A DNA stretch of 64,000 bases from Planctomycetota bacterium (GCA_013816485.1 JACDEI010000007.1:1-64000); one strand, 5' to 3'; numbered from the stretch's first letter, positions 20,837-41,882 are shown. Notes: a model not told the origin generated them from the letters alone. A program made the numbers and translations.

Positions 20837-23800
20837 TCAGGGTATTGGCGTAACCGGTGCCGGCGCTAGTGCCGGCTGCTCCACCAGGATGCCCATTACC
20901 TGTGGCGTACCTTTGATCACCGTGGCAGCGACATCGATGGCGCCATCGGTGACGTTGATCTCCACCGGCCCGACTTTCTCCCAGCCTGCCGCTGGAAGTG
21001 AACCAACACCGGGCAGCGTTACTCCTTCGATGACGAGATCGAACTGCCGGCTGTTGGCGCTGCCATTTTCACCAAGCCACAACCAGACGCGGCTCAGACC
21101 ATTGGGAACCTTTATCCGGAAGGCGAGGCTTTCCTTGGTACCGACGATGGCGGTGCCTAGCAGCATACGGAGTTTATTGTCGACCGCTGGCTTGGGCGTG
21201 AACGTTGCGGTTTTGCGCTGACCAATCTGAACCTGAAGTGCACCATCGTCGCCGCCCGGGATCAGGAACTGCGCGTTGACCCAATCAGCATGGTCCGCGT
21301 CATTCGGACCGTTTGAATCGACTACCAGCCGTAGTTCCTTGCGTCCAGTGAGTGGAACCGCGACCGGTTTGACCATGCCTTTGCGCACCACACCGCTGTC
21401 CCACGCCTTCTGACCATCGAGCCAGACCTGGAAGATCACCTCACCATTCGGCGCTTCGTCATCGATGCCGACCATGGCGGTGAAGCCGGATTGGCGACCA
21501 TCGAGGGCGTAGACCAGTTCGCTGACGGCGTGTACGCCCAGACCCTTGGCATAGACCTTGCCATCAAGCGTCAGCGGGCGGTTGTCCATGCTGCGATCCT
21601 TGCGGATCTCACCGTTACCCGTGGTTCCCCGAATCCAGTTAAGATCGCTGAGCCACGGTCCGGGCTGATGGCTGTTGGCCGGTGTAGCGCCATCGGCCTC
21701 AGCCTGGCGATGCCCGATAAACTTCACTCCGTCGAACTCGGTAGCCTCACCACCCAGGTTAATCGCGCGCACCACCTTCCAAGGAACCACTGCTGCCGGT
21801 GGCGGAGCAGTGAGCGAACGCACCGCACCGATTTCATCGACATCGAAGGTGCCATCCATATTGGCGGTGCTGGAGATATCGAACGCCACCTCCCACACCT
21901 TTGCGCGATCAAAATCCTGACCCTGGGGTACGAGTTCCGCCAACGGCACGATCACTTGATGCCAGGCGCCATCGAGCAATCCGGGCTGACGTGCGGTGAG
22001 GTTCACGTCCACGGTGCGCCGCACCGGATCACGCGGCGAACACGCTAGACGCATCACCACTTTTTGCGGTGCGGCAGGTCCGCTGAAACGCAGCCACATG
22101 GTCAGCGCGGCGAAACCGTTGAGGTCGGTGCCTGCGGTGTCGGACGACCATGCGTGCCAATTCCAGCCGACGTTCGCCGCATTGCCGCCCGCCAGACGCG
22201 CGCGTAGGCCGGCACCGCGGTGGCCCTGATCGGCGACCTCTTCGAACGCAGACTGGCCGGCGGCACCGAAACCCTTGTAGCCCGCTCCACCATTGGCGCC
22301 GTCGCCATCCCAGATAATCAGGTCCGGGCGGCGGGCAGCGCTGATGGCTGGTGCCGGTACGGCCGCGGGCGGCGGCGATCCTGGCGAGGCCTTGACGAAG
22401 CGTGGACTGCCATCGCCATACTCGCTCAACGCCACCGCCTGCAGGGTGATGTTGCCGTCGTTGGGGTTGTCGGAGCTGTAGCTGATGGTCAGCTTTGCAC
22501 CCTGCTCCTTGGCGCGGTACAGTAGCGTGTAGCACAAAGAGTCGCCGATGGCGTCGATAGTGATGCTGTCGTCGCGATAGAGTGGCGCGCTGTTGTCGCT
22601 GAGTGTGGCGGTGAGAATCGCATGGGTTTTCCAGCCACCGACCCACACCACCAGCCGGCGCAGCACCGGGTCGGCCGGCGCGGTGAAGGTAAAGCCCTTG
22701 CCGCCATTGTCGGTAAACCACCCGGTCTGGGTCTCAGCGATTGCGGCATCCGGCGTGCCGTTGCTCCAGCCGAAGCGGACCTTGTTGTCGTCGTAGCGTT
22801 CGATCAGTGCCTGGTCGGCGGTACGGGCGACCGCCAGCTGACCGCCACCGCTGCGGCGGGTGAACGAGGCCGCGTCCTTGAGACCATAGTGGATCCAGTC
22901 GCTGGTTCCCAGGTCGCTGAGATTAACCACCAGCGCTGATGGGGCGACCGCACCCTGCAACAGGCCACCGGCCGGCAGCACCATCACGAAATAATTGGAT
23001 TGCGCATTCGTGGTGTTGCGTTCGTTCGCGCCCAGTACTACCGGCCCGGCCGCAAAAGTGCGGCGATGCAACCGGAAGCCCCCACCCTTGTCGGCCCCCA
23101 CCACCACGTCGGTGGCGGTCCAGCCCTGCATCCAGCTCGGCAGGCTGGTCGCCGTGGTGGCATAGGCGAGGTAGACATCGACCGCAACGTCGGCGGTGAA
23201 ACGCAGGTGCGGATTCGCTACCGCGCCATCGTCATCATTACGCGTACGGATCAGCTGGCCCTGTTCGAAGAAGGGCGGCAGGTCCACCAGCTTGTACTCG
23301 CGATCGATGTAGACCTTCTCGCCATTGCGGGCCGGACCTAGGACATAGGCCGCACCGCTGGCGACGAAGTCGATGGAACGCACCAGTGCCGCTCGTGCCA
23401 CCAGTGGCGGTGCTGGCGCTGACGGCGGCACCGGATCCGTCGGCGGTGACAGATGCGCGCCGGGAATCGGACGTTCCAAGGTTCCATCAGGCAGTTGCCA
23501 ACCGACCGAGACATGATCCTGGTTGCCTCCTTCCTTGTGCAGCACCTCGACGTAATAACGCCGACCTTTTTGCAGCGTGATCGCACCAGAACGCTGTTGG
23601 TCGGGGTGGCGTTCCCATTCCTCGAAGCGGATACCCTCGTTGCGATTCACCGGCGACACGGCAATCCGGCGTAGGCCACTGCGGGTGTCATTGTCTGACA
23701 ACCACAGTTCCCCCTCGTCGTCACTGGCGATCCAGAAGACATAGGCACCATCGAGTGGCGGCACGATGAAGCCACGAAGACGCTGCAAGTAGTCATCGCC

Positions 23801-25354
23801 CCAGTCACGGCGTGCGGAGAATACCGGCTCGTCCGCCTCGCCCTGTGGACGGTCTGGGTAGCCGACCACGCTGACACCCTCAGCGATGCGATAACCGCTG
23901 ACACCGGTCCACCACTCGCGGCGGATGGTGCCACTTCCGTAAACCTGTGTGATCGTCACCGGGGTCGGCGCGGAGGTGGCCAGCGTACCTGCGGAGCCGA
24001 GCGCGCGCACGGTGAAGGTCGTAGTGCCGACTGGCGGTTGATCCCAGGTCCAAGCGAAGGGCTCAGCAGCGACCGTCGCCACGCGCTCGTCGCCTTTCCA
24101 GAACTCCACTGCGGTCACCCCCAAACTATGAGACAGGTCCGCGCGCAGGACGAGTGGTTGGCCGCCGTACGTGCGTCCGGTGGGGCTCAGCGCCACTCGC
24201 GGCGGTGGTGGCGGTGCTCCGGTCGTTCGTCCCGGATCGAGACGCAGCACACCTCCAGCCGCGGGCGCGCCGCGCTCCGGCGTGGTGGTCGGCATCACTG
24301 GTTCGGCCACCGTGCGGACCGCGGCAGGTTCAAGCGGACGCGGCGGAGCGGCCCGGGAGGTGCCGGTGCGCAAGGACATCGCCACCAGCGCAATGATACC
24401 CACCAGCACCATGCCACCACCGATGATCCACGGCATCGGTGACGGCCGTGGCGCATCGTCAATAAGCGGCATCACGTGACGATTGCTGGTGGTCATGCGC
24501 GCCACGCGGCGCGCATCACTAGCCGGCGGACGCAGCCCACTCACCGGACGCGGGCCTTCGCCCATCATCACGCGCCCGCTGTCGCCGGCGCCCAGCCCGG
24601 TCTGGCGCGTGATCACCACCGCATCCTCGCGCGAGAACGGCGCGAGCACGGCCGACAACGCCAGATGGACGCGTACCTGCCGGGAAAACTGTTGCGCTCG
24701 CTCCGGATCACGTCCCAGGTTAGTCGCCAACAACGCGCGCGAATCAACATCGATGGTGCCGTTCAACCAGTCTTCGATCAGCGGTGGCAGCAACCGATCG
24801 CCAGGTCCAGGCGGATGCGCGATGCCTCGCCAGTCGCACGCCGCGCGCGCGGCCGCAAGCGTGGTAGCCAGCTCCGCCTCACTGATCATCAGGCTGGCTG
24901 CCAGTGCGTCCGGACGCTGCCGTTGGGAGTAACGACGGATGAGCAGCGAGCGTGTCGCTTCAGGCAAGGCCGCGAGTTGCGACGGCAGCTGAAACACCTG
25001 GAGCTCACTGCCATCGGCAAGCGCTTCGCGACACTGCTCGATCACCTGGTGACTGAGTGCATCCTGAATGTCGATCGCACGGCGATCAGCCTGCGTCAGG
25101 TGGGCGGTGAGTGGATCAACCGCGACCTGGAGGATCCAGTCCGCGAACGGTGTCTCAGGCAACCATTCACCGAGCCGCGCGCGCACTGCGGACCACACGC
25201 TGATTTCCACCAACCCCAACGCTGGCGATTGATCCAAGTGCGCACCCAGCGCTAGGCGCAGCGTGGGCGCGAACTCCTGGACCAGCGCAACAAAGGCATC
25301 GACGTTGCCCGCCGCGGCCTGCTGCACCAAGACCTGGATCCGATCCGCCTGCAT
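20837..25354 (-). CDS. putative sigma-like/FecR-like N-terminus, TM, Ig-PA14-CBM-NPCBM ectodomain fusion (paralogue A)
   Basis: N-term VQQAAAGNVDAFVALVQEFAPTLRLAL...ALPEATRSLLIRRYSQRQRPDALAASLMISEAELATTLAAAR resembles ECF sigma regions 2/4; TM PWIIGGGMVLVGIIALVAM; PA14 and NPCBM-type segments. Confidence 0.82.
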   Translation of the reverse strand: MQADRIQVLVQQAAAGNVDAFVALVQEFAPTLRLALGAHLDQSPALGLVEISVWSAVRARLGEWLPETPFADWILQVAVDPLTAHLTQADRRAIDIQDALSHQVIEQCREALADGSELQVFQLPSQLAALPEATRSLLIRRYSQRQRPDALAASLMISEAELATTLAAARAACDWRGIAHPPGPGDRLLPPLIEDWLNGTIDVDSRALLATNLGRDPERAQQFSRQVRVHLALSAVLAPFSREDAVVITRQTGLGAGDSGRVMMGEGPRPVSGLRPPASDARRVARMTTSNRHVMPLIDDAPRPSPMPWIIGGGMVLVGIIALVAMSLRTGTSRAAPPRPLEPAAVRTVAEPVMPTTTPERGAPAAGGVLRLDPGRTTGAPPPPPRVALSPTGRTYGGQPLVLRADLSHSLGVTAVEFWKGDERVATVAAEPFAWTWDQPPVGTTTFTVRALGSAGTLATSAPTPVTITQVYGSGTIRREWWTGVSGYRIAEGVSVVGYPDRPQGEADEPVFSARRDWGDDYLQRLRGFIVPPLDGAYVFWIASDDEGELWLSDNDTRSGLRRIAVSPVNRNEGIRFEEWERHPDQQRSGAITLQKGRRYYVEVLHKEGGNQDHVSVGWQLPDGTLERPIPGAHLSPPTDPVPPSAPAPPLVARAALVRSIDFVASGAAYVLGPARNGEKVYIDREYKLVDLPPFFEQGQLIRTRNDDDGAVANPHLRFTADVAVDVYLAYATTATSLPSWMQGWTATDVVVGADKGGGFRLHRRTFAAGPVVLGANERNTTNAQSNYFVMVLPAGGLLQGAVAPSALVVNLSDLGTSDWIHYGLKDAASFTRRSGGGQLAVARTADQALIERYDDNKVRFGWSNGTPDAAIAETQTGWFTDNGGKGFTFTAPADPVLRRLVVWVGGWKTHAILTATLSDNSAPLYRDDSITIDAIGDSLCYTLLYRAKEQGAKLTISYSSDNPNDGNITLQAVALSEYGDGSPRFVKASPGSPPPAAVPAPAISAARRPDLIIWDGDGANGGAGYKGFGAAGQSAFEEVADQGHRGAGLRARLAGGNAANVGWNWHAWSSDTAGTDLNGFAALTMWLRFSGPAAPQKVVMRLACSPRDPVRRTVDVNLTARQPGLLDGAWHQVIVPLAELVPQGQDFDRAKVWEVAFDISSTANMDGTFDVDEIGAVRSLTAPPPAAVVPWKVVRAINLGGEATEFDGVKFIGHRQAEADGATPANSHQPGPWLSDLNWIRGTTGNGEIRKDRSMDNRPLTLDGKVYAKGLGVHAVSELVYALDGRQSGFTAMVGIDDEAPNGEVIFQVWLDGQKAWDSGVVRKGMVKPVAVPLTGRKELRLVVDSNGPNDADHADWVNAQFLIPGGDDGALQVQIGQRKTATFTPKPAVDNKLRMLLGTAIVGTKESLAFRIKVPNGLSRVWLWLGENGSANSRQFDLVIEGVTLPGVGSLPAAGWEKVGPVEINVTDGAIDVAATVIKGTPQVMGILVEQPALAPAPVTPIP

Positions 25355-25550
25355 CAACCGCTCCTTGGGCTCCCGCCCACGAGACCTGTGTCTCAACCGC
25401 TGGGAGGCAGGTGGCCACGTTACAGGTCCTGGCAGACTGACTCAACTGCTGTCAGGGAATCGCTCAGGCGGCAGACGCTTCACCGCGCAAATAGTGCGCC
25501 TCGACCCTTGGTTTGTGTCGTTTCTGTACCCACGCGAACCACCCCCCACC

Positions 25551-28500
25551 TCACGGGGTCGGCGACGGTTGCTCCACCAGGATGCCCATGATCTGGGGCG
25601 TGCCCTTGAGCACGGTGGCAGCGACATCGATCGTCCCATCGGCGACGATGACCTCGATGGGGCCCAGTTTCTCCCAGGCACTGGCGGGTAACTGACCGAC
25701 GCCGGGTTGCATGACGCCTTCGATCGAGAGATCAAATTGACGGCTGTTGGCGGCACCGTTCTCGGCAAGCCACAGCCACACCCGGCTGGGACCGTTGGGC
25801 ACCTTCACACGGAAAGCCAGACCGTCCTTGGTGCCGACCAGTGCGGTGCCGAGCACGCTGCGCAGCTTGGCGTCTGCGGCGGGCTTGGGCGCGAACGTCG
25901 CGGTCTTGCGCTGACCGGCCTGTACCTGCAGCCCACCATCGTTGCCACCCGGAACCAACATCTGGGCATTGCCCCAATCGGCATGATCCCAGTCGTTGCC
26001 GCCACTGGGATCGACGACCAGCCGGAGTTCCTTGCGGCCAACCAGCGGGACCGCCACCGGCTTGGCCACGCCATGGCGCATGGGACCGCTATCGAAGAGT
26101 TTCTGGCCATCGACCCACACCTGGAAGATCGCCTCCCCAGGCTCTGCAGCCTGATCGATACCGACGACAGCGGTGAATCCGGAGTAACGGCCATCAAGAG
26201 CGAACACCACCTCGGCAGCCGCATGCATGCCCAGTCCGTGTGGGAACTCCTGGCCGGCGATGTTCAGCGGTTTGTCCGACCATGAGCGATTGCGCCGCAC
26301 GTCGCCGTTGGCGTTGGTGGCGCGCACCCACGGCAGATCGCTCAGGCGCGGACCGGGCTGGTGCGAACCTACCGGCGTCGCGCTGTCGGCTTCGGCCTGA
26401 CGGTGGCCGAGGAAGCGCACATCGTCGATCTCCACCGGCTCGCCACCCAGGTTGATCGCGCGGACCATCTTCCAGGTCACGGGCCGAGGCGCCTGCATGG
26501 CTTGCTGCACCAGGACGAAATAATTGGAGGAGGCGCCGGTGACGTTGCGCTCATTGGCGCCCAACACCACCGGGCCGGCGGCGAAGGTCCGGCGGTACAG
26601 CCGGAAGCCGCCGCCCTTTTCCGCTCCGACCACCATGGGAGTCACCGTCCAGCCCTGCATCCAGCCCGGCAGCGCCGTCGCGGTCACGGAATATGCCAGG
26701 TAGACATCGACCGGAACGTCGGCGGTGAAACGCAGATGCGGATTTGCCGACGCGCCATCGTCATCGTTGCGCGTACGGATCAAACGACCCTGCGCGAAGA
26801 GCTCCGGCAGGTCGACCAGTTGGTAATCGCGATCGATGTAGACCCGCTCGCCGTTTCGCGCTGGCGCTTCAATATAGGCCGCGCCGCTGGCGACGAAGTC
26901 GATTGAGCGCACCAATTGTACTCCCGCCGCCAGTGGCGGCGCTGCAATCAGTGGCGGCGCTGCCTCCGTCGGCGGTGCCGCCGCTGGCGCTGACGGCGGC
27001 AGCGGACCGGTCGGTGGTGCAAGATGGACCCCTGGCACCGGGCGTTCGAGGGTGCCGTCCGGCAGGCGCCAGCCGACCGCCACATGGTCTTCGCCATTCC
27101 CTTCCTTGTGCAGCACCTCGACATAGTAGCGCTGACCACGTTTGAGCATGATGCCGTCGGAGCGTTGGCTCGGCTGGTGTTCCCATTCCTGTGACTGGAT
27201 GCCGAAATTGGGGATTCGCGGCGACGATGCGATACGACGCAGGCCAGCACGCTGGTCGTCTGGGGACAACCACAACTCCCCATCATCGTCGCTCGCGATC
27301 CAGAACACGTACTCGCCATCAAACGGTGGAACGATGAAACCATGCAAGCGCTGAAAATAGGCATCACCCCAGTTCTGTGGCGCGCTGAAGCTCGATTCAT
27401 CGACTGCGCCGTGCGATTGATTGGGGTATCCCTTCGTCGCAAGGCCGTCCGCAATGACCCAACCATCGACGTTGGTCCACCACTCGCGGCGGATGGTACC
27501 GCTGCCGTAGGCGTGATCGACCGTCACCGTAGTTGGAGCAGAAGAAGCCAACGTTCCCGCCGCACCCACCACACGCAGCGTGAAACTGGTCGTGCCAACC
27601 GTCGGTTGCTCCCAGGTCCAGGTGAATGGACGCGTGACGCTCGCCACCCGTTCGTCGCCCTTCCAGAACTCGACGGCGGTGACATCCAGCGTATGCGATA
27701 CGTCGGCGCGCAGGACCAGCGGCTGATTCTGATACACCCGACCACTCGGCATCAGGGCCACGCGTAGTGGAGGTAGCGCGCTGCGATCCGGCGTTGGTGT
27801 GGGTGGTGCCGGCATCAGATGAATACCAGGGATGGGACGTTGCAGCGTGCCGTCGGGCAGTTGCCAACCGACATCGAGGTGATCATCCCCGCCGCCTTCC
27901 TTGTGCAGCGCTTCGCAATAATAGCGCTGACCGGCGCGCAGGCGGATGGGCGCGGAGCGCTGACGGGTATCATGATCCCAGGCCTGGTAGGGCACGGCAC
28001 CGCCATTGCCGGCGATGCGAGTGCGCTTCTCGTAACTCTCATCGGTCGATAGCCACAACTCCGCCTCGTTGTCCGCGCAGATCCAGAAGACGTAGTCACC
28101 ATCGACTGGCGGGATGAGGTAACCGCTCAGGCGTTGAAGAAAAGAATCCTCCCAACTGCGCGGTGCCGAGAATTGACTCACCAGGCTCCGACCGGTCGGC
28201 GCCGTGCTGCTGGTGAGCCGGACAAGTCCCATGCTCAGCTCTTCGCCAGGCAGGCCACTCCACCATTCACGGGTGAACTGGCCGTTGCCGTTCGCCTTCA
28301 TGACGGTGAGCCACACCGGTTGCGACGACACCTTTGTCAGCGCACCAATCATGGCGCGCACCTGCACCTCGACTATGCCTGCCTGGGGCGGTGTCCACTT
28401 CAGACTGAAAGGGACCTCGCGGGCCGAACCGAGCCGCTGATTGCCAGACCAGTATTCGACCGCGGTCAGCTCCGGTACGCCCGACACCAGCGCGCGCAAT

Positions 28501-29702
28501 TCAAAGGGGATGCCAGTGTAGACCTGTGCCTCCGCCGTCACGCCCACGAGCATGACCTTCGGCGCACCTTGGGCGATTGGCTGCGGGCGCAGTGCGCTTC
28601 CACCAGCAGCTACGGGGTGAAGTGGTGATGTCTGCGACGCAGGCGGCGGTGATGTGGTTGCCGTTGCCGGCGTCGCCACCAGGGGCTCGTTTGGTGGCAG
28701 CGTACGCGATGTCCCTCCCCGTGAGGTCAGCACCAACGCCAGCACACCCACCACCACCATGCCGCCACCGATGATCCACGGTATCGGCGAGGGCCGCGGT
28801 GCTTCGTCAGTCACTGGTACCACATGACGATTGCTGGTGGTCATGCGCGCTGGGCGACGAGCGTCGCTGCCGGCCGGACGCGCGGGCGACGATGGACGAG
28901 CGATGTCACCCATCATTACTCGCCCGCTATCACCGACACCCAGGCCAGTCTGCCGCACCAATGCTGCCGCATCCTCACGGGTGAATGGTGCCAAGCAGGC
29001 ACCCAGGGCGAGGTGCACCCGTACCTGACGGGCGAATTGCGCCGCACGTTCGGGATCACGTCTCAGGTTGCTCGCCAGCAAAGCGCGCGAATCGACATCG
29101 ATGGTGTGGTTGAGCCAGTCTTCGATCAATGGCGGTAACAGACGCTCGCCCGCCGCCGGTGGACGGGCGAGCTCGCGCCAATCGCACAAGGCTCGCGCCG
29201 TCGCCAGCGAGATCGCCAGTTCGCTTTCGCTGATCATCAAATTGGCGGCAATGTCGGATGGGCGTTGGCGATCGCGGTAGCGCCGCGTCAGCAACGCGCG
29301 CGTCGCCTCGGGCAACGCGGCGATGCGTTGACGCAGCTGAGCGACCTGGAGTTCACGTCCATCGGCGAGTGCTTCGTGACAGGCTTGGATGTTCTGATGC
29401 GCCAACGCATCCTGGATATCCACTGCACGACGGTCGGCCTGCGTCAGGTGAGCGGTGACTGGCTCGATCGCGACCGATTGGATCCACGAGGCAAACGGCG
29501 GGTCGCCGATGAACTCGCCAAGCCGGCTGCGCACCGCGCTCCACACCGCCGATTCAACTGCCGCGAGGGCAGTCGGCTGATCGAGATGCGCCGCCAACGC
29601 CAAGCGCAAACCTGGAGCAAATTCCTGCACCAGTGCAATGAAGGCTTCGACGTTTCCCGCCGCAGCCTGTTGCGCCAGCACCTGGACCCGATCCGCCTGC
29701 AT
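25551..29702 (-). CDS. putative sigma-like/FecR-like N-terminus, TM, Ig-PA14 x2, NPCBM ectodomain fusion (paralogue B)
   Basis: N-terminal ~330 aa clearly homologous to paralogue A; two Ig-PA14 modules; NPCBM-like LNIAGQEFPHGLGMHAAAEVVFALDGRYSGFTAVVGID. Confidence 0.82.
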   Translation of the reverse strand: MQADRVQVLAQQAAAGNVEAFIALVQEFAPGLRLALAAHLDQPTALAAVESAVWSAVRSRLGEFIGDPPFASWIQSVAIEPVTAHLTQADRRAVDIQDALAHQNIQACHEALADGRELQVAQLRQRIAALPEATRALLTRRYRDRQRPSDIAANLMISESELAISLATARALCDWRELARPPAAGERLLPPLIEDWLNHTIDVDSRALLASNLRRDPERAAQFARQVRVHLALGACLAPFTREDAAALVRQTGLGVGDSGRVMMGDIARPSSPARPAGSDARRPARMTTSNRHVVPVTDEAPRPSPIPWIIGGGMVVVGVLALVLTSRGGTSRTLPPNEPLVATPATATTSPPPASQTSPLHPVAAGGSALRPQPIAQGAPKVMLVGVTAEAQVYTGIPFELRALVSGVPELTAVEYWSGNQRLGSAREVPFSLKWTPPQAGIVEVQVRAMIGALTKVSSQPVWLTVMKANGNGQFTREWWSGLPGEELSMGLVRLTSSTAPTGRSLVSQFSAPRSWEDSFLQRLSGYLIPPVDGDYVFWICADNEAELWLSTDESYEKRTRIAGNGGAVPYQAWDHDTRQRSAPIRLRAGQRYYCEALHKEGGGDDHLDVGWQLPDGTLQRPIPGIHLMPAPPTPTPDRSALPPLRVALMPSGRVYQNQPLVLRADVSHTLDVTAVEFWKGDERVASVTRPFTWTWEQPTVGTTSFTLRVVGAAGTLASSAPTTVTVDHAYGSGTIRREWWTNVDGWVIADGLATKGYPNQSHGAVDESSFSAPQNWGDAYFQRLHGFIVPPFDGEYVFWIASDDDGELWLSPDDQRAGLRRIASSPRIPNFGIQSQEWEHQPSQRSDGIMLKRGQRYYVEVLHKEGNGEDHVAVGWRLPDGTLERPVPGVHLAPPTGPLPPSAPAAAPPTEAAPPLIAAPPLAAGVQLVRSIDFVASGAAYIEAPARNGERVYIDRDYQLVDLPELFAQGRLIRTRNDDDGASANPHLRFTADVPVDVYLAYSVTATALPGWMQGWTVTPMVVGAEKGGGFRLYRRTFAAGPVVLGANERNVTGASSNYFVLVQQAMQAPRPVTWKMVRAINLGGEPVEIDDVRFLGHRQAEADSATPVGSHQPGPRLSDLPWVRATNANGDVRRNRSWSDKPLNIAGQEFPHGLGMHAAAEVVFALDGRYSGFTAVVGIDQAAEPGEAIFQVWVDGQKLFDSGPMRHGVAKPVAVPLVGRKELRLVVDPSGGNDWDHADWGNAQMLVPGGNDGGLQVQAGQRKTATFAPKPAADAKLRSVLGTALVGTKDGLAFRVKVPNGPSRVWLWLAENGAANSRQFDLSIEGVMQPGVGQLPASAWEKLGPIEVIVADGTIDVAATVLKGTPQIMGILVEQPSPTP

Positions 29703-30331: not shown

Positions 30332-31090
30332 TCAGCGTTCCTGTCGCACGACCTCGGCCGCCAATGCGCGGTAATCTTCGGCACCATGGCAGCGGCTGTC
30401 GTAGACGGTGATCGGCTGGGCGAACGACCACGCTTCGGCGAGGCGGATGTTTTCACGGATGACGGTCTTGAACACCAACTTGCCGAACTTGGCGCGCAGC
30501 TGTTCGACCACTTCCTGCGTGTGACGGGTGCGGCCGTCGACGCGGCAGGCAACGATGCCGGTCAATTCCAGGTCGGCGTTGTGGCGCTCGCGCACGACCT
30601 CGGCGGTCTTGATGATCTGCGCCACGCCACCCAGGGCCATGACGTGGGCCTCGACCGGGATGAGCATCTCTTGCGCCGCGGCGAGCGCGCTGATGGCGAG
30701 CAAGCCGAGCGACGGCGGACAATCCATCAGCAGGTAGTCCCAACGATCCTTCGGCAGTTTCTTCAGTTTGCGTTTGAGCACGGTCTCACTGCCGATCTCA
30801 CCAGCGAGGACCTTCTCGACCCCGGCCAGCCAAGTCGAGCTCGGTATGATATCGATGCCGAGCGTGGCCGTCGCCTGCACCTGATCGATCAGCTCCGCAC
30901 GATCGGCCAACACATCGAGCAGACCCTTGCCACCGTCGGCGACACCGAACCACGCGGTGGCCGAGGCCTGTGGATCGAGATCGATGACCAGCACGCGTTT
31001 TCCGCGGTCGCCGAGTGCAGCAGCCAGGTTGACCGTGGTGGTGGTCTTGCCGCTGCCGCCTTTTTGATTGATGATCGCCAGGGTTCGCAT
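30332..31090 (-). CDS. parA: ParA/Soj family ATPase
   Basis: MRTLAIINQKGGSGKTTTTVNLAAAL deviant Walker A; VLVIDLDPQASAT; LLMDCPPSLG. Confidence 0.94.
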   Translation of the reverse strand: MRTLAIINQKGGSGKTTTTVNLAAALGDRGKRVLVIDLDPQASATAWFGVADGGKGLLDVLADRAELIDQVQATATLGIDIIPSSTWLAGVEKVLAGEIGSETVLKRKLKKLPKDRWDYLLMDCPPSLGLLAISALAAAQEMLIPVEAHVMALGGVAQIIKTAEVVRERHNADLELTGIVACRVDGRTRHTQEVVEQLRAKFGKLVFKTVIRENIRLAEAWSFAQPITVYDSRCHGAEDYRALAAEVVRQER

Positions 31091-31218
31091 GTCGTCTCCG
31101 TCCGTGGTGCCCATGACCAATGTCACGATGGGCGTTGGTCACCAGAAAGTAGAGGCCGCGGGTGGTTGCCCTCAAGTACGGGGATGGTGTTTCATGACCC
31201 AGCGTGGGATGGACGGGG

Positions 31219-36873: not shown

Positions 36874-39800
36874 TCAGCCACCCGCCGCCGGCACGAACAC
36901 CACCTGCTCGAACACCGCGGTGGTGCGCACAGCGTTGTCGTGCGCGGTGACCGCCAAGCCGATCACCGGCGTGGTGCCGAGCGGCACGCTGATGGTGGTG
37001 CCCACTTGGGTCCAGGCGATCCCATCATCCGACACCCATCCACTGAGCGTGGAGCCGCTGCGCACGATGCGCACCCATCCAGGAGCGGCACGCCCCGCCA
37101 CCGCCGCGCTACCGGAGGTACCGCCGGTCGCACTACGATACTGGAACGACGCACCGTTCGCCGGCGTCAGTACCATCATGCCGTGGACGCTGCCGGCCGC
37201 GGTACTGGCACGCACCATCACCCCCGCTTTGGCCCAGGCATTGGTGTTGCCCAGCGACACCACGCGCGCGATCAGTTCCCCGTCCGTGGTGAGCGGACGA
37301 TGGACGAACTGGAACGCATCGGCATTGCCCCAGATATCGGCACCACCACCGAGGAGCGTGAAATCATCACCATCACCGGTGACGGAGCCCGCCAGCCCTA
37401 CCGCACCGATGTCGGTCGAAGTCCACGGTGCCGGCAGGCCAGCAACCGCCGCAGGCAGACGCCAGAGCGCCGAGGTCGGAACCAGTTGTTTGGCGATGCC
37501 CGGACCCGACCAGCTGAATTGCAGGCCGGCACCACCACCGTTCTCGAAGAACTCGACACGCAGCGGATGGTAACCAGCGGCAAGCGTGAGCGTCGCCGAA
37601 CGTTCCTGCATCCCATGCAGGCCATCATTGTCGATGACCATGGCTCCATCGAGGAATACCCGCGAGCCATCGTCCGAACTGATGAACAACGTATACGAAC
37701 CAGCGGTGTCGATTTTCAGCCAGCCGCTGTGTCGACTGGCGAAGGTGTCGACCATCGTCGTCGGTAATCCGCTCCACGCGGTCGAGACGCTGGCATAGGC
37801 GATCTGCGCATCGGTGCGGCTGGCCTCAGGTACCCGCCCAGTCAAATCAGGAATCACCGATAACGCAGTGGTGAAGTCGAAGAACTCCGCCAGCAGGCCA
37901 GCGACATACGGCGGCGCCACGGAGTCCTCCTGCCACAACGCGGAGGCAGGCACGATCTGCTTGGCGATACCAGGACCCGACCAGCGGAACTCCAGACCAG
38001 CGCCACCACCGCTCTCGAAGAACTCGACCCTCAGGTGGTGGTAGCCGGCGTTGAGCGTTACCGTCGCCGAACGCTCCTGCATACCATGCAGGCCGTCGTT
38101 GTTGATCAGCAACGCACCATCCAGGTAGACCCGTGAGCCGTCATCCGAACTGATGAACAACGTGTACGAACCAGCGGTGTCGATCTTCAGCCAACCCGTG
38201 TGCCGGCTAGCGAAGGTATCGGCCATCGTCGTCGGCAGACCACTCCACGCGGTCGACACGCTGGTGTAGGCAATCTGCGTATCGGTTCGCGTGACATCCG
38301 CCGTCCGTCCGCTGAGGTCGGGGATCACCGACAACGCGGTGGTGTAATCGAAGAACTGGGCCAGCAGACCCGGCTTGAACGCCGCCGGCGGATCATCGAC
38401 CGCTGTCACCGTGATGGTGACGGTCGCAGACTGGCTATCGACTTGGCCATCGTTGGCGACGTAGGTGAACGAGTCAGTGCCGTACCAGTCGAGCGATGGC
38501 ATATAACGATAACCACCACTGATGCTGGTGAGCGTGCCGTTCGCCGGCTGGTTGGTCACGCGCACCGTCAATGGATTGCCGTCTGCGTCGCTGTCGTTGG
38601 CGAGCAAGCTGGCAGTTGTGATGGTGAGTGCGGTGTCCTCTGACGTGGTGAACACATCGCCGATTGCAGCAGGCGGACTGTTGGTGGGCACCTGCGTGAA
38701 TGCGAATTTGCGTATGCTCGGCGATTGAATGTTCGAATCGCCGTCCGCGATGTAGAGGGCATTGCCCGCTAGTGCGAGCGGGCCTACCTGGGACAGGGGG
38801 AAGCGTATACCCAGGGTTGCACGATCGAGGAAGCAGGTGGCCTTGCTATAAGAACTATCTGCGCACCCGACGATCACTGCATCATCGGTTACGATCGGTC
38901 CATACAACGGTGCGTACGGAAGAGCGATGGAGGCCAGACGACGACCAGACGCGAGGTCGAATACGTCCATCCCCATGTGTCGCGGAGCATAGACCACACC
39001 ATCGTGAATCACTGGAGTCAGCTTCCAGTTCCCCAAAGGGGGGACGGCCTGCCAGGACACCGACAGATCGTTTGCATCACAGACGATCAGGCGCCTGTCG
39101 TCACGCAGGACGAGTTTGTTTCCGCTGAGCACGGGAACCGTCCTCATCCATCCGTTCGCCGACTGGGTCTGCACCAACTGGCGCTGCTGCTGCAACGCAC
39201 CAGTGGTGGCGTCATGGCGGCGGATGGTTCCCTGCATCCAGGTGAAGAGCACGCCATTTCCATAGGTCGGACTCCAGTCATCAAAGGTTGGGAGCGCCGT
39301 ATACGTGAACCGCTGGGTACCTGATGCGGCATCATATCCGTACAACCGGTTTGATCCTCCACTCCACACCATGCCGTTGGCTACCGTTGGCGGCCAACCA
39401 GTTGTGACCTGGGCGGAGGAGGTCCAACGCTGCGCCCCGGTCGACAGATCCATGGCCTGAAGACGGTTTCCGTTGGAGTAGGTGTTGTTGGCGACAAAGA
39501 CCGTGGATTGGTCGATGGTCGGAATGGTGGCATCGCCCGCCTCGAATCCCCGCTCCCAGATGCGTTGTCCCGTGGCTGTATCAAAACCACTGACCAACAT
39601 CTGACCGTAGGCGTAGTAGTCGATCGCTGCGACCAACCGGTTGCCGACCACGGCCGCACCACGCATGCGATTGACCGATGACGAACCTGCTGAGTAACTG
39701 GCAGTCCAAGCAAGGGTCGGTGCCACCTCACCGACAAAACCAGGGAAGTGCCCGGTATGCTGCGGATCACGACCGATCATCGGCCAGTCGCCGATCAGTC

Positions 39801-41589
39801 TGGCTCCAGATGCTGATGCACGCACCTGAATGCGCACCTCCGTCTCACGAGAACTGGCAGCGCCATCGTTCGCGCGGTAGGAGAAACGGTCGAAGCCGAT
39901 GAAACCGGGAGTCGGTGTGTAGGTGAATGCGCCAGTCGCACTCAATGACACCGTACCGTGACGGGCTTGGCTCGCGATGATGGCGCTCAAGGCGTCGCCA
40001 TCCGGATCCGCATCATTCGCGAGAACACCAGAGCCACCGACCGTCAGGCTGCCACCCGAGGAGACCACATAGGTATCGGTGACTGCACTGGGGATGGCGT
40101 TAACCACCATGAAGGTGGCGCTGGCGAAACTGCCTGACCCTGCCAGACGCACATTGGCGGAGTCGACCAGTTCCACATCAAGGCGATGGCTCTGACGCGT
40201 CAGACCAGTAAGCGGGATCAGGCCATCGCCGTTATCCTCGGTCCATGCTCCACCATCCAGGCTCCACCGCACCTTGGAGCCGCTCGGCCACGGACCCCAC
40301 CGGTCATAACCCGCCACCAACGACGCTCCGGTCCAGTGCCCACTTCCCTGCCACGGTTTGCGGATGGCGACCGTGGGAGCTCCATATGGCCAGGAGTATC
40401 CTGATGTGCGCACACTGTTGAGGTGCACGTGGGATGAGACCGGAAGGTTCGGTTCGTTCTCCTGATTGAAATCCAACCACACTGGCATCGCCGTGCTCGC
40501 CTCCCCTCCCTGACGGACGGCCTGCATACGGGCAATCTCCGCCGCCGGGATCGGCACTTCGATGATGATACTCGTCGCGCCCTCCGGCCAGGTTTCCAGC
40601 AGAGGCAACAAGGACGTGACGTGGACCGCGCGATTGCCGAGCCAGGTCGTCATCTCTGGATACCGCCATACCGCCGGCTGAGGATTGCTCAGTTGCACAT
40701 ACAACGGCGCGGTTCCGCCTTCCGGCACCACCAGGGTCCCGCCATTACCGAGTCCGACGATCTTCGCATCCATCAGTGGCAGGGGCAGCGCCGTCGCATC
40801 GGTAGCCGTGAGTGCCGGCATGCGGAAGGCCTTGGTGGCGTAGTTTGCCCGACCCGCACCGTCGGTAAAGAACACCACCACCCGCGCATCGAATTCCTGA
40901 TCACGCTGGAAGGGACGCAGGTGACAGCGGGATACTAGGCCGCTATCGCCGAAAGGCGGAGTCAGCGTGTTCCACCGGAAACGACCGAGCACCGATTCGC
41001 CGAGGTGTGCGATCATCTGGATGGGGGCAGCGGTGGTGAAGCCGCGGTCTACTCCGCCTGGAGTCCTGTCGTCAGCCATCGTCGCATCCCCGCTGAGATA
41101 GTAATCTCCCTCCTGCCCGAGCGATGGGGTCCAGCCAAATGACGAGAAGGACAATGTCGGCAGCAGGCGATCACCGTTCGGTGCCGGATTCGCGTTCTCG
41201 CTGATGAGCGTGAAGGTCGCGAAGTTGAAATCCGCTCCGTACGGTTCGCCAGCCTGATTGTGCGGATGCACGTGCACGCTGAGCTGGTTCTCGCCATCGT
41301 AGAACCTCCGCGTGTCGACCTGGGTCGTGCGGCTCCACACCGGCGTGTCGGGGGCATGGCCGGGTTCGTTGAACGGCAAGAGTATCATGTTGCCGTACGC
41401 CGCGGTGTGCATGGCGATGCCATTGGTCACCGTCACGGTGATGTTCACCTTGCCGCTGACGGTCTGCCCTTGGCTGACTGGTTGACCGTTGGCTGTCACA
41501 GCGAAGGCGATGCTCGGGTCAGCCCCCTCAGCTATGGCTGCGATCCCGGCGAGCAGGCAGATGGCGGTGAGGTACAGGATACGGGGCAT
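36874..41589 (-). CDS. giant exported protein: cadherin-like/VCBS-type repeats, PQQ-like propeller, two PA14 domains, C-terminal DUF1349-like region
   Basis: signal peptide MPRILYLTAICLLAGIAAIAEG; GVLANDADPDGDALSA...GAFTYTPTPGFIGFDRFSYRANDG; two PA14 copies FFDYTTALSVIPDLSGR/FFDFTTALSVIPDLTGR. Confidence 0.85.
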   Translation of the reverse strand: MPRILYLTAICLLAGIAAIAEGADPSIAFAVTANGQPVSQGQTVSGKVNITVTVTNGIAMHTAAYGNMILLPFNEPGHAPDTPVWSRTTQVDTRRFYDGENQLSVHVHPHNQAGEPYGADFNFATFTLISENANPAPNGDRLLPTLSFSSFGWTPSLGQEGDYYLSGDATMADDRTPGGVDRGFTTAAPIQMIAHLGESVLGRFRWNTLTPPFGDSGLVSRCHLRPFQRDQEFDARVVVFFTDGAGRANYATKAFRMPALTATDATALPLPLMDAKIVGLGNGGTLVVPEGGTAPLYVQLSNPQPAVWRYPEMTTWLGNRAVHVTSLLPLLETWPEGATSIIIEVPIPAAEIARMQAVRQGGEASTAMPVWLDFNQENEPNLPVSSHVHLNSVRTSGYSWPYGAPTVAIRKPWQGSGHWTGASLVAGYDRWGPWPSGSKVRWSLDGGAWTEDNGDGLIPLTGLTRQSHRLDVELVDSANVRLAGSGSFASATFMVVNAIPSAVTDTYVVSSGGSLTVGGSGVLANDADPDGDALSAIIASQARHGTVSLSATGAFTYTPTPGFIGFDRFSYRANDGAASSRETEVRIQVRASASGARLIGDWPMIGRDPQHTGHFPGFVGEVAPTLAWTASYSAGSSSVNRMRGAAVVGNRLVAAIDYYAYGQMLVSGFDTATGQRIWERGFEAGDATIPTIDQSTVFVANNTYSNGNRLQAMDLSTGAQRWTSSAQVTTGWPPTVANGMVWSGGSNRLYGYDAASGTQRFTYTALPTFDDWSPTYGNGVLFTWMQGTIRRHDATTGALQQQRQLVQTQSANGWMRTVPVLSGNKLVLRDDRRLIVCDANDLSVSWQAVPPLGNWKLTPVIHDGVVYAPRHMGMDVFDLASGRRLASIALPYAPLYGPIVTDDAVIVGCADSSYSKATCFLDRATLGIRFPLSQVGPLALAGNALYIADGDSNIQSPSIRKFAFTQVPTNSPPAAIGDVFTTSEDTALTITTASLLANDSDADGNPLTVRVTNQPANGTLTSISGGYRYMPSLDWYGTDSFTYVANDGQVDSQSATVTITVTAVDDPPAAFKPGLLAQFFDYTTALSVIPDLSGRTADVTRTDTQIAYTSVSTAWSGLPTTMADTFASRHTGWLKIDTAGSYTLFISSDDGSRVYLDGALLINNDGLHGMQERSATVTLNAGYHHLRVEFFESGGGAGLEFRWSGPGIAKQIVPASALWQEDSVAPPYVAGLLAEFFDFTTALSVIPDLTGRVPEASRTDAQIAYASVSTAWSGLPTTMVDTFASRHSGWLKIDTAGSYTLFISSDDGSRVFLDGAMVIDNDGLHGMQERSATLTLAAGYHPLRVEFFENGGGAGLQFSWSGPGIAKQLVPTSALWRLPAAVAGLPAPWTSTDIGAVGLAGSVTGDGDDFTLLGGGADIWGNADAFQFVHRPLTTDGELIARVVSLGNTNAWAKAGVMVRASTAAGSVHGMMVLTPANGASFQYRSATGGTSGSAAVAGRAAPGWVRIVRSGSTLSGWVSDDGIAWTQVGTTISVPLGTTPVIGLAVTAHDNAVRTTAVFEQVVFVPAAGG

Positions 41590-41882
41590 GGGACCTCCAA
41601 CTGGACGTTGATAGTAAATCTTCGCATCGAAGCTCAGGTGACCTATCAGGCCAAGCTGGCCATTTCCGGGGGGGTCTCGTACTGCTGCACGTTGACGGCG
41701 CAAGGATCCACCTGCTGAGATGTCAAATCCCGGCCATTACTCAGCATTGGGAATTCGAGCGACCCCTGAATTCATCTCATCTTCACCCGAATATGCAGCC
41801 GGCCGGGTGATTGTCACACTTTCCCTGGCAGGTTATCGCTCCAGGGCTGGCACCGCCCCCCATCAGGCGAATGCTGCGCACC

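Follow-up and report, generated by a model that had tools for sequence, protein, structure and literature searches.

Proteins that combine an extracytoplasmic function (ECF) sigma factor and its anti-sigma factor in one polypeptide are already known, so that such a fusion is in itself no novelty. In Pseudomonas putida, IutY (ECF243) carries a cytosolic ECF sigma factor, a FecR-family anti-sigma factor and a transmembrane helix in a single chain (PMC5411451, PMC8999054), and in the ECF48, ECF52 and ECF53 groups of Actinobacteria an ECF sigma factor is joined to a transmembrane anti-sigma factor, SCO4117 being an example with an extracytoplasmic carbohydrate-binding domain (PMC8999054). PhyR of Alphaproteobacteria possesses a sigma2/sigma4-like domain that binds an anti-sigma factor and not RNA polymerase (RNAP) (PMC4598750). 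Here we analyse two tandem open reading frames (ORFs) on the minus strand of a 64,000-nucleotide stretch of Planctomycetota DNA (JACDEI010000007.1, hereafter the window). The deduced proteins, P1 (1505 amino acids, aa) and P2 (1383 aa), start with an ECF-sigma-like domain followed by a FecR_N-like segment, a transmembrane helix and a long ectodomain, and their sigma-like domain appears to have lost the surfaces by which sigma factors contact RNAP and promoter DNA.

Homology and origin of the fusion proteins

A profile of 15 fusion N-termini, from which true sigma factors were excluded, matched AlgU/SigH of P. aeruginosa (6in7) with an E value of 5.9e-17 over residues 7-177, covering both sigma2 and sigma4, and sigma-E of E. 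coli (1or7) with E 1.1e-14. The NCBIfam model TIGR02989 (Rhodopirellula/Verrucomicrobium sigma-70 family) matched P1 and P2 with E values of 6e-8 and 4e-9, which fall short of the curated cut-off of the model. These matches support the descent of the P1 and P2 N-termini from an ECF sigma factor with sigma2 and sigma4 domains. They bear out an original prediction, made from the window, of an ECF-sigma-like N-terminus of about 190 aa, for which a hidden Markov model (HMM) search had been proposed as a check.

AlphaFold models were built on three-sequence alignments and reached a mean predicted local distance difference test score (pLDDT) of 46 and 59; only the sigma4 part was interpreted. Whole-chain matches of the pLDDT 59 model in a structure search were weak (best E 1.7e-3), the top ones being ECF sigma factors. 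The P2 sigma4 part of the low-confidence model superposed on solved sigma4 domains with target-normalised TM-scores of 0.75-0.80 and, for several, a root-mean-square deviation of 1.2-1.3 Å.

Pfam scans of P1 and P2 gave no match to sigma region 2 and matched region 4 only at E 0.053, as would be expected if the likeness were a chance all-helical resemblance of an unrelated domain; among 17 fusion N-termini no Pfam sigma match was better than E 1e-4. Chance is extremely improbable given the TIGR02989 match obtained from a single sequence, the E value of the fusion-only profile against ECF sigma factors of the PDB, and the colinearity with ECF-FecR operons described below. Chance resemblance and assembly artefact were both rejected, the fusions occupying at least 18 loci across four genomes.

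One HMM for each half of the fusions matched, separately, adjacent ECF and then FecR-like genes, several of them in the genome of the window and others in related genomes. The partner FecR-like proteins of these two-gene loci carry Pfam FecR plus PA14, CBM_11 or CBM96. In other planctomycetes the full fusion profile runs from the ECF gene across one stop codon into the following gene. Since both halves are homologous to adjacent separate genes, these comparisons show that, as far as homology can tell, each fusion descends, as one polypeptide, from the pair of ECF and FecR genes that is ordinary in planctomycetes.

In one Planctomycetota genus each of the four genomes has fusions, at least 18 genes altogether (7, 5, 5 and 1), the assemblies being incomplete; the genome of the window has at least seven, beside about 30 matches to separate ECFs. 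No fusion of this clade was found in 20 other genomes of the class examined, all from the same family, nor in the other genomes of a 297-genome phylum sample, and in the class search a gap in E from 1e-83 to 1e-34 separated the fusions from the next matches. A scan of named genomes returned one locus, the relative being Planctomycetota isolate CH-Jul18-104. In a tree constructed without the degenerate columns the fusions formed one clade with a Shimodaira-Hasegawa-like approximate likelihood ratio test (SH-aLRT) support of 95. All 15 aligned paralogues retain both the sigma-like and the FecR_N halves.

Loss of RNAP- and DNA-contact residues

Comparison of the fusions with standalone ECFs indicates that the sigma fold is kept and that the surfaces contacting the beta' clamp of RNAP and the promoter are lost, so that the domain is, by its residues, a pseudo-sigma. 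In 67 standalone ECFs 37 columns were class-conserved at 80% or more, and these were then scored in the 15 fusions. Thirty of them remain above 45%, and seven drop below 35%, namely columns 48, 51, 55 and 58 in region 2.2 and columns 64, 129 and 171. D/E48, Q51, aliphatic 55 and aromatic 58 are present in 100, 96, 94 and 91% of the standalone ECFs versus 20, 0, 33 and 7% of the fusions. In E. coli sigma-E numbering D48, Q51, I55 and Y58 form the RNAP-docking face, and P1 has L48, I51, S55 and R58 in their place. Column 58 is arginine in 11 of the 15 fusions; at most other lost positions the fusions have no common replacement residue. The replacement of the region 2 acidic/Q motif, already pointed out in the original prediction, thus extends throughout the whole fusion family.

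In sigma32, D77, I84 and M87 are reported to contact the beta' clamp helices (PMC10216364), and these correspond to columns 48, 55 and 58 when the sequences are aligned by eye on the D-x-x-Q motif that they have in common. All three clamp-contact columns among the 37 are lost, for which the probability by chance is 35/7770 = 0.0045 given seven losses in 37 columns treated as independent. The basic or asparagine DNA-contact residues R79, N80, R87 and R171 are mostly lost as well, and the net charge changes from +4.3 in standalone ECFs to 0 in fusions in regions 2.3-2.4 and from +3.5 to +0.2 in region 4.2. On a score of eight markers the 15 fusions averaged 1.0 while the 67 standalone ECFs averaged 6.9. 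The hydrophobic core columns are intact.

Two C-extended membrane ECFs served as controls, L132 with eight and L140 with six of the eight markers; therefore the residue loss is not simply a consequence of extension or fusion. L132 (L132:153-1877, minus strand, G010:C350) encodes 586 aa in another genus of the same family, with Pfam Sigma70_r2 and Sigma70_r4_2 above cut-off and, read by eye, a hydrophobic segment and then a FecR-like region; it is a candidate IutY-like system in Planctomycetota. L140 (L140:191-2137, minus strand, G002:C136) encodes 649 aa in the fusion-bearing genus; its sigma part is followed by a hydrophobic segment, and it has no FecR match.

These residues bear on whether the fusions could work in the manner of IutY, with the N-terminal domain freed by regulated proteolysis and directing RNAP to promoters of unusual specificity. 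The domain order is that of IutY, a protein that Prc and RseP activate (PMC5411451), the ancestry and fold of the sigma domain are intact, and the M50 site-2 protease family is present in the genome, although its presence is weak evidence, each of 14 control genomes having the family too. However, in all fusions tested region 2.2 has lost its near-universal acidic and Q residues, and the aromatic/aliphatic residues that face the clamp are gone, as are basic residues in 2.4 and 4.2, while L132 and L140 keep them. Because a released sigma factor needs to bind RNAP, against which the sequence speaks, this explanation is unlikely. Of the one-polypeptide sigma/sensor first proposed for this locus, the architecture is thus supported and the active sigma factor released by proteolysis is made unlikely; its fallback, a degenerate sigma acting as a protein-interaction module, is the reading better supported by the residue loss.

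FecR_N segment, membrane helix and ectodomain

The FecR_N-like segment of the fusions is homologous, by HMM, to the N-termini of FecR-domain proteins encoded beside standalone ECFs, and the Q and R of its R-Q-x-R motif are invariant across 14 fusions. Pfam FecR (PF04773, the periplasmic domain) matched neither P1 nor P2, even with E values as high as 1 allowed; it was found between the membrane helix and the ectodomain in fusion paralogues L042 (E 2.3e-7) and L044 (E 1e-5), above the cut-off, and in L043 (E 0.002) below it. Each protein has one strong hydrophobic helix at about residues 307-328 with a mean hydropathy of 2.4-2.5, and Pfam identified Big_7, PA14 and NPCBM in the C-terminal part of both. 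The FecR-like segment after the sigma part, the single membrane helix and the Ig, PA14 and NPCBM-type ectodomain were all anticipated correctly.

The N-terminus is predicted to be cytoplasmic because of the FecR homology, the lack of an N-terminal hydrophobic segment and the type of ectodomain; the charges flanking the helix are indecisive on orientation. The ectodomains are long, modular and different among paralogues. NPCBM and PA14 are families that we take to suggest carbohydrate binding, and the ligand class is probably glycan. The seventh, divergent fusion of the genome of the window (L111:4180-6255, minus strand, G000:C50; 692 aa) has an ectodomain with a match to the arabinofuranosidase B catalytic family, in the N-terminal part of that family, and a weak one to Laminin_G_3.

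Selection on the domains

The ratio of nonsynonymous to synonymous substitution rates (dN/dS) between P1 and P2 was 0.18 for sigma2, 0.15 for sigma4, 0.10 for FecR_N and 0.18 for the ectodomain, values which are rough, the synonymous sites being near saturation (dS 1.1-1.8). Because of saturation the C41/C70 pair was left out, as was the C19/C266 pair for most regions. Among 91 fusion pairs, FecR_N was the better conserved half, compared with sigma, in 72; among 629 two-gene pairs this held for 205, and for 37 of the 190 within the class. Because conservation is reversed relative to the two-gene pairs, the sigma part may have been freed from RNAP and DNA constraint, FecR_N becoming the more constrained half; the FecR partners were gathered with a profile started from the fusions, and the reversal is support for this and no proof.

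A surface glycan-binding protein or adhesin, in which the sigma/FecR part is a vestigial cytoplasmic plug for a type II membrane anchor, would agree with the long, modular and variable ectodomains, with the loss of sigma-function residues lacking a common replacement at most positions, and with the missing Pfam FecR match in P1 and P2. It would leave unexplained the constraint on both cytoplasmic parts: the purifying selection on the sigma-like and FecR_N parts is at least that on the ectodomain, FecR_N has invariant residues, a new arginine has arisen at column 58, and no aligned paralogue has lost either half. The vestigial anchor is for this reason disfavoured, and we consider it rather unlikely.

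Gene pair and genomic context

Both ORFs were located where the original prediction had placed them, with the peptides that it quoted (Table 1). P1 starts with an ATG at 25354 and ends with a stop codon at 20837-20839, and P2 extends from an ATG at 29702 to a stop codon at 25551-25553. AAGGAG or GGAGG sequences resembling ribosome-binding sites lie immediately 5' of both ATGs. The N-terminal regions of P1 and P2 are 72-74% identical.

Table 1. Positions of the P1 and P2 genes and their domains in the window
Feature	Position	Strand	Basis
P1 gene, pseudo-sigma (putative) - FecR_N - transmembrane helix - Big_7/PA14/NPCBM ectodomain	20837..25354	-	ORF and Pfam
P1 sigma2-like domain, residues 1-95, having lost the residues that contact clamp and DNA	25070..25354	-	Profile, HMM and column comparison
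P1 sigma4-like domain, residues 123-178	24821..24988	-	Fusion-only profile
P1 FecR_N-like anti-sigma segment, residues 186-250	24605..24799	-	HMM match
P1 transmembrane helix, residues 310-328	24371..24427	-	Hydropathy
P1 Big_7 Ig-like domain	24008..24178	-	Pfam, E 1.4e-6
P1 PA14 domain	23468..23788	-	Pfam, E 4.3e-9
P1 NPCBM domain	21266..21655	-	Pfam, E 2.2e-43
P2 gene, tandem paralogue, architecture as P1	25551..29702	-	ORF and Pfam
P2 sigma2-like domain, residues 1-95	29418..29702	-	Profile and HMM
P2 sigma4-like domain, residues 123-178	29169..29336	-	Low-confidence model against solved sigma4 domains
P2 FecR_N-like segment, residues 186-250	28953..29147	-	Alignment to P1
P2 transmembrane helix, residues 307-325	28728..28784	-	Hydropathy
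P2 first PA14/GLEYA-type domain	27882..28133	-	Pfam GLEYA, E 1.2e-7; two PA14 stretches in P2
P2 Big_7 domain, best of two stretches	27570..27737	-	Pfam
P2 second PA14 domain	27039..27407	-	Pfam PA14, E 7.8e-19 for the whole protein
P2 NPCBM domain	25959..26345	-	Pfam, E 1.5e-39

A ParA/MinD-like ATPase gene lies upstream of P2 on the same strand (30332-31126, minus), without evidence of a functional link. Further upstream, an ORF of 1609 aa (36874-41703, minus) has, read by eye, an N-terminal signal-like segment, Ig/cadherin-like and PQQ-like repeats and two near-identical PA14-like modules. Three related fusions in three genomes have a PSCyt1/DUF2231 membrane cytochrome gene directly upstream (L012:8927-9811, L042:5908-6963 and L048:2889-3848, all minus), and beyond it on the opposite strand is a MEKHLA-domain gene, identified by Pfam in L012 and represented by similar ORFs at the other two loci. 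The P1-P2 pair lacks an upstream PSCyt1/DUF2231 gene, and no partner gene common to the fusions was found in a comparison of gene context.

Discussion

The best explanation of these data is a membrane-tethered sigma mimic acting through protein-protein interaction, to which we give about an even chance; the sigma part would then probably serve as a decoy or a binding module, no longer as a sigma factor. In the proposed mechanism, of which the topology, ligand class, cis contact and trans partner are all conjectural, the pseudo-sigma would stay bound in cis to its own FecR_N at the cytoplasmic face. Binding of a ligand, probably a glycan, to the PA14/NPCBM ectodomain would alter this contact and the exposure of the mimic, perhaps with a contribution of site-2 proteolysis, and FecR_N could then capture a true ECF sigma factor, of which the cell has roughly 30. 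Alternatively, the pseudo-sigma might displace a true ECF sigma factor from another FecR.

Several points weigh against this interpretation. Rapid divergence may inflate the clade support through long-branch attraction; the six- and eight-position marker scores use positions picked after inspection of the alignment, which the 37-column test does not; and the pairs in the FecR_N versus sigma conservation counts are not independent. Purifying selection shows that a folded domain is retained and says nothing on its binding partner, and the AlphaFold models are too weak (pLDDT 46 and 59) to place the packing of sigma2 and FecR_N or the cis contact.

More tentatively, and with clear doubt, the fusions may represent a genus-specific expansion of tethered sigma mimics, in which paralogues with their own glycan-binding ectodomains would, on binding extracellular polysaccharide, release true ECFs or capture them through the cis pseudo-sigma:FecR_N contact. 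ECFs of Planctomycetota are very numerous and mostly unstudied, and the fusions offer a testable path from extracellular glycans to these ECF networks. A family derived from a fused ECF/anti-sigma and resembling PhyR would show a route from a transcription factor to a membrane signalling module.

Among known systems, the planctomycete operons of TIGR02989-type ECFs with FecR/PA14 or FecR/CBM proteins contain homologues of both halves in the same order, but as two genes and with an intact sigma factor. PhyR resembles the fusions in function by inference only; it is cytosolic, has a receiver domain and NepR as partner, and is without a transmembrane helix, FecR or ectodomain (PMC4598750), while Pfam scans of the fusion proteins gave no match to a receiver domain. 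ECF48, ECF52 and ECF53 differ in having a zinc-finger anti-sigma and not FecR_N, a functional sigma factor and another phylum of origin (PMC8999054). In IutY, cleavage by Prc/RseP leaves the sigma factor active, and signalling involves a TonB receptor (PMC5411451, PMC8999054), unlike the fusions, in which the residues that a sigma factor needs for RNAP have disappeared and the Big_7/PA14/NPCBM ectodomain is about 1000 aa or more. The fusions thus share the architecture class of IutY and ECF48/52/53 but, on their residues, would not qualify as functional sigma factors. In the papers cited here, the outcome of a limited literature search, fused ECF/anti-sigma proteins were previously known only with an active sigma factor, and sigma mimicry from the cytosolic PhyR.

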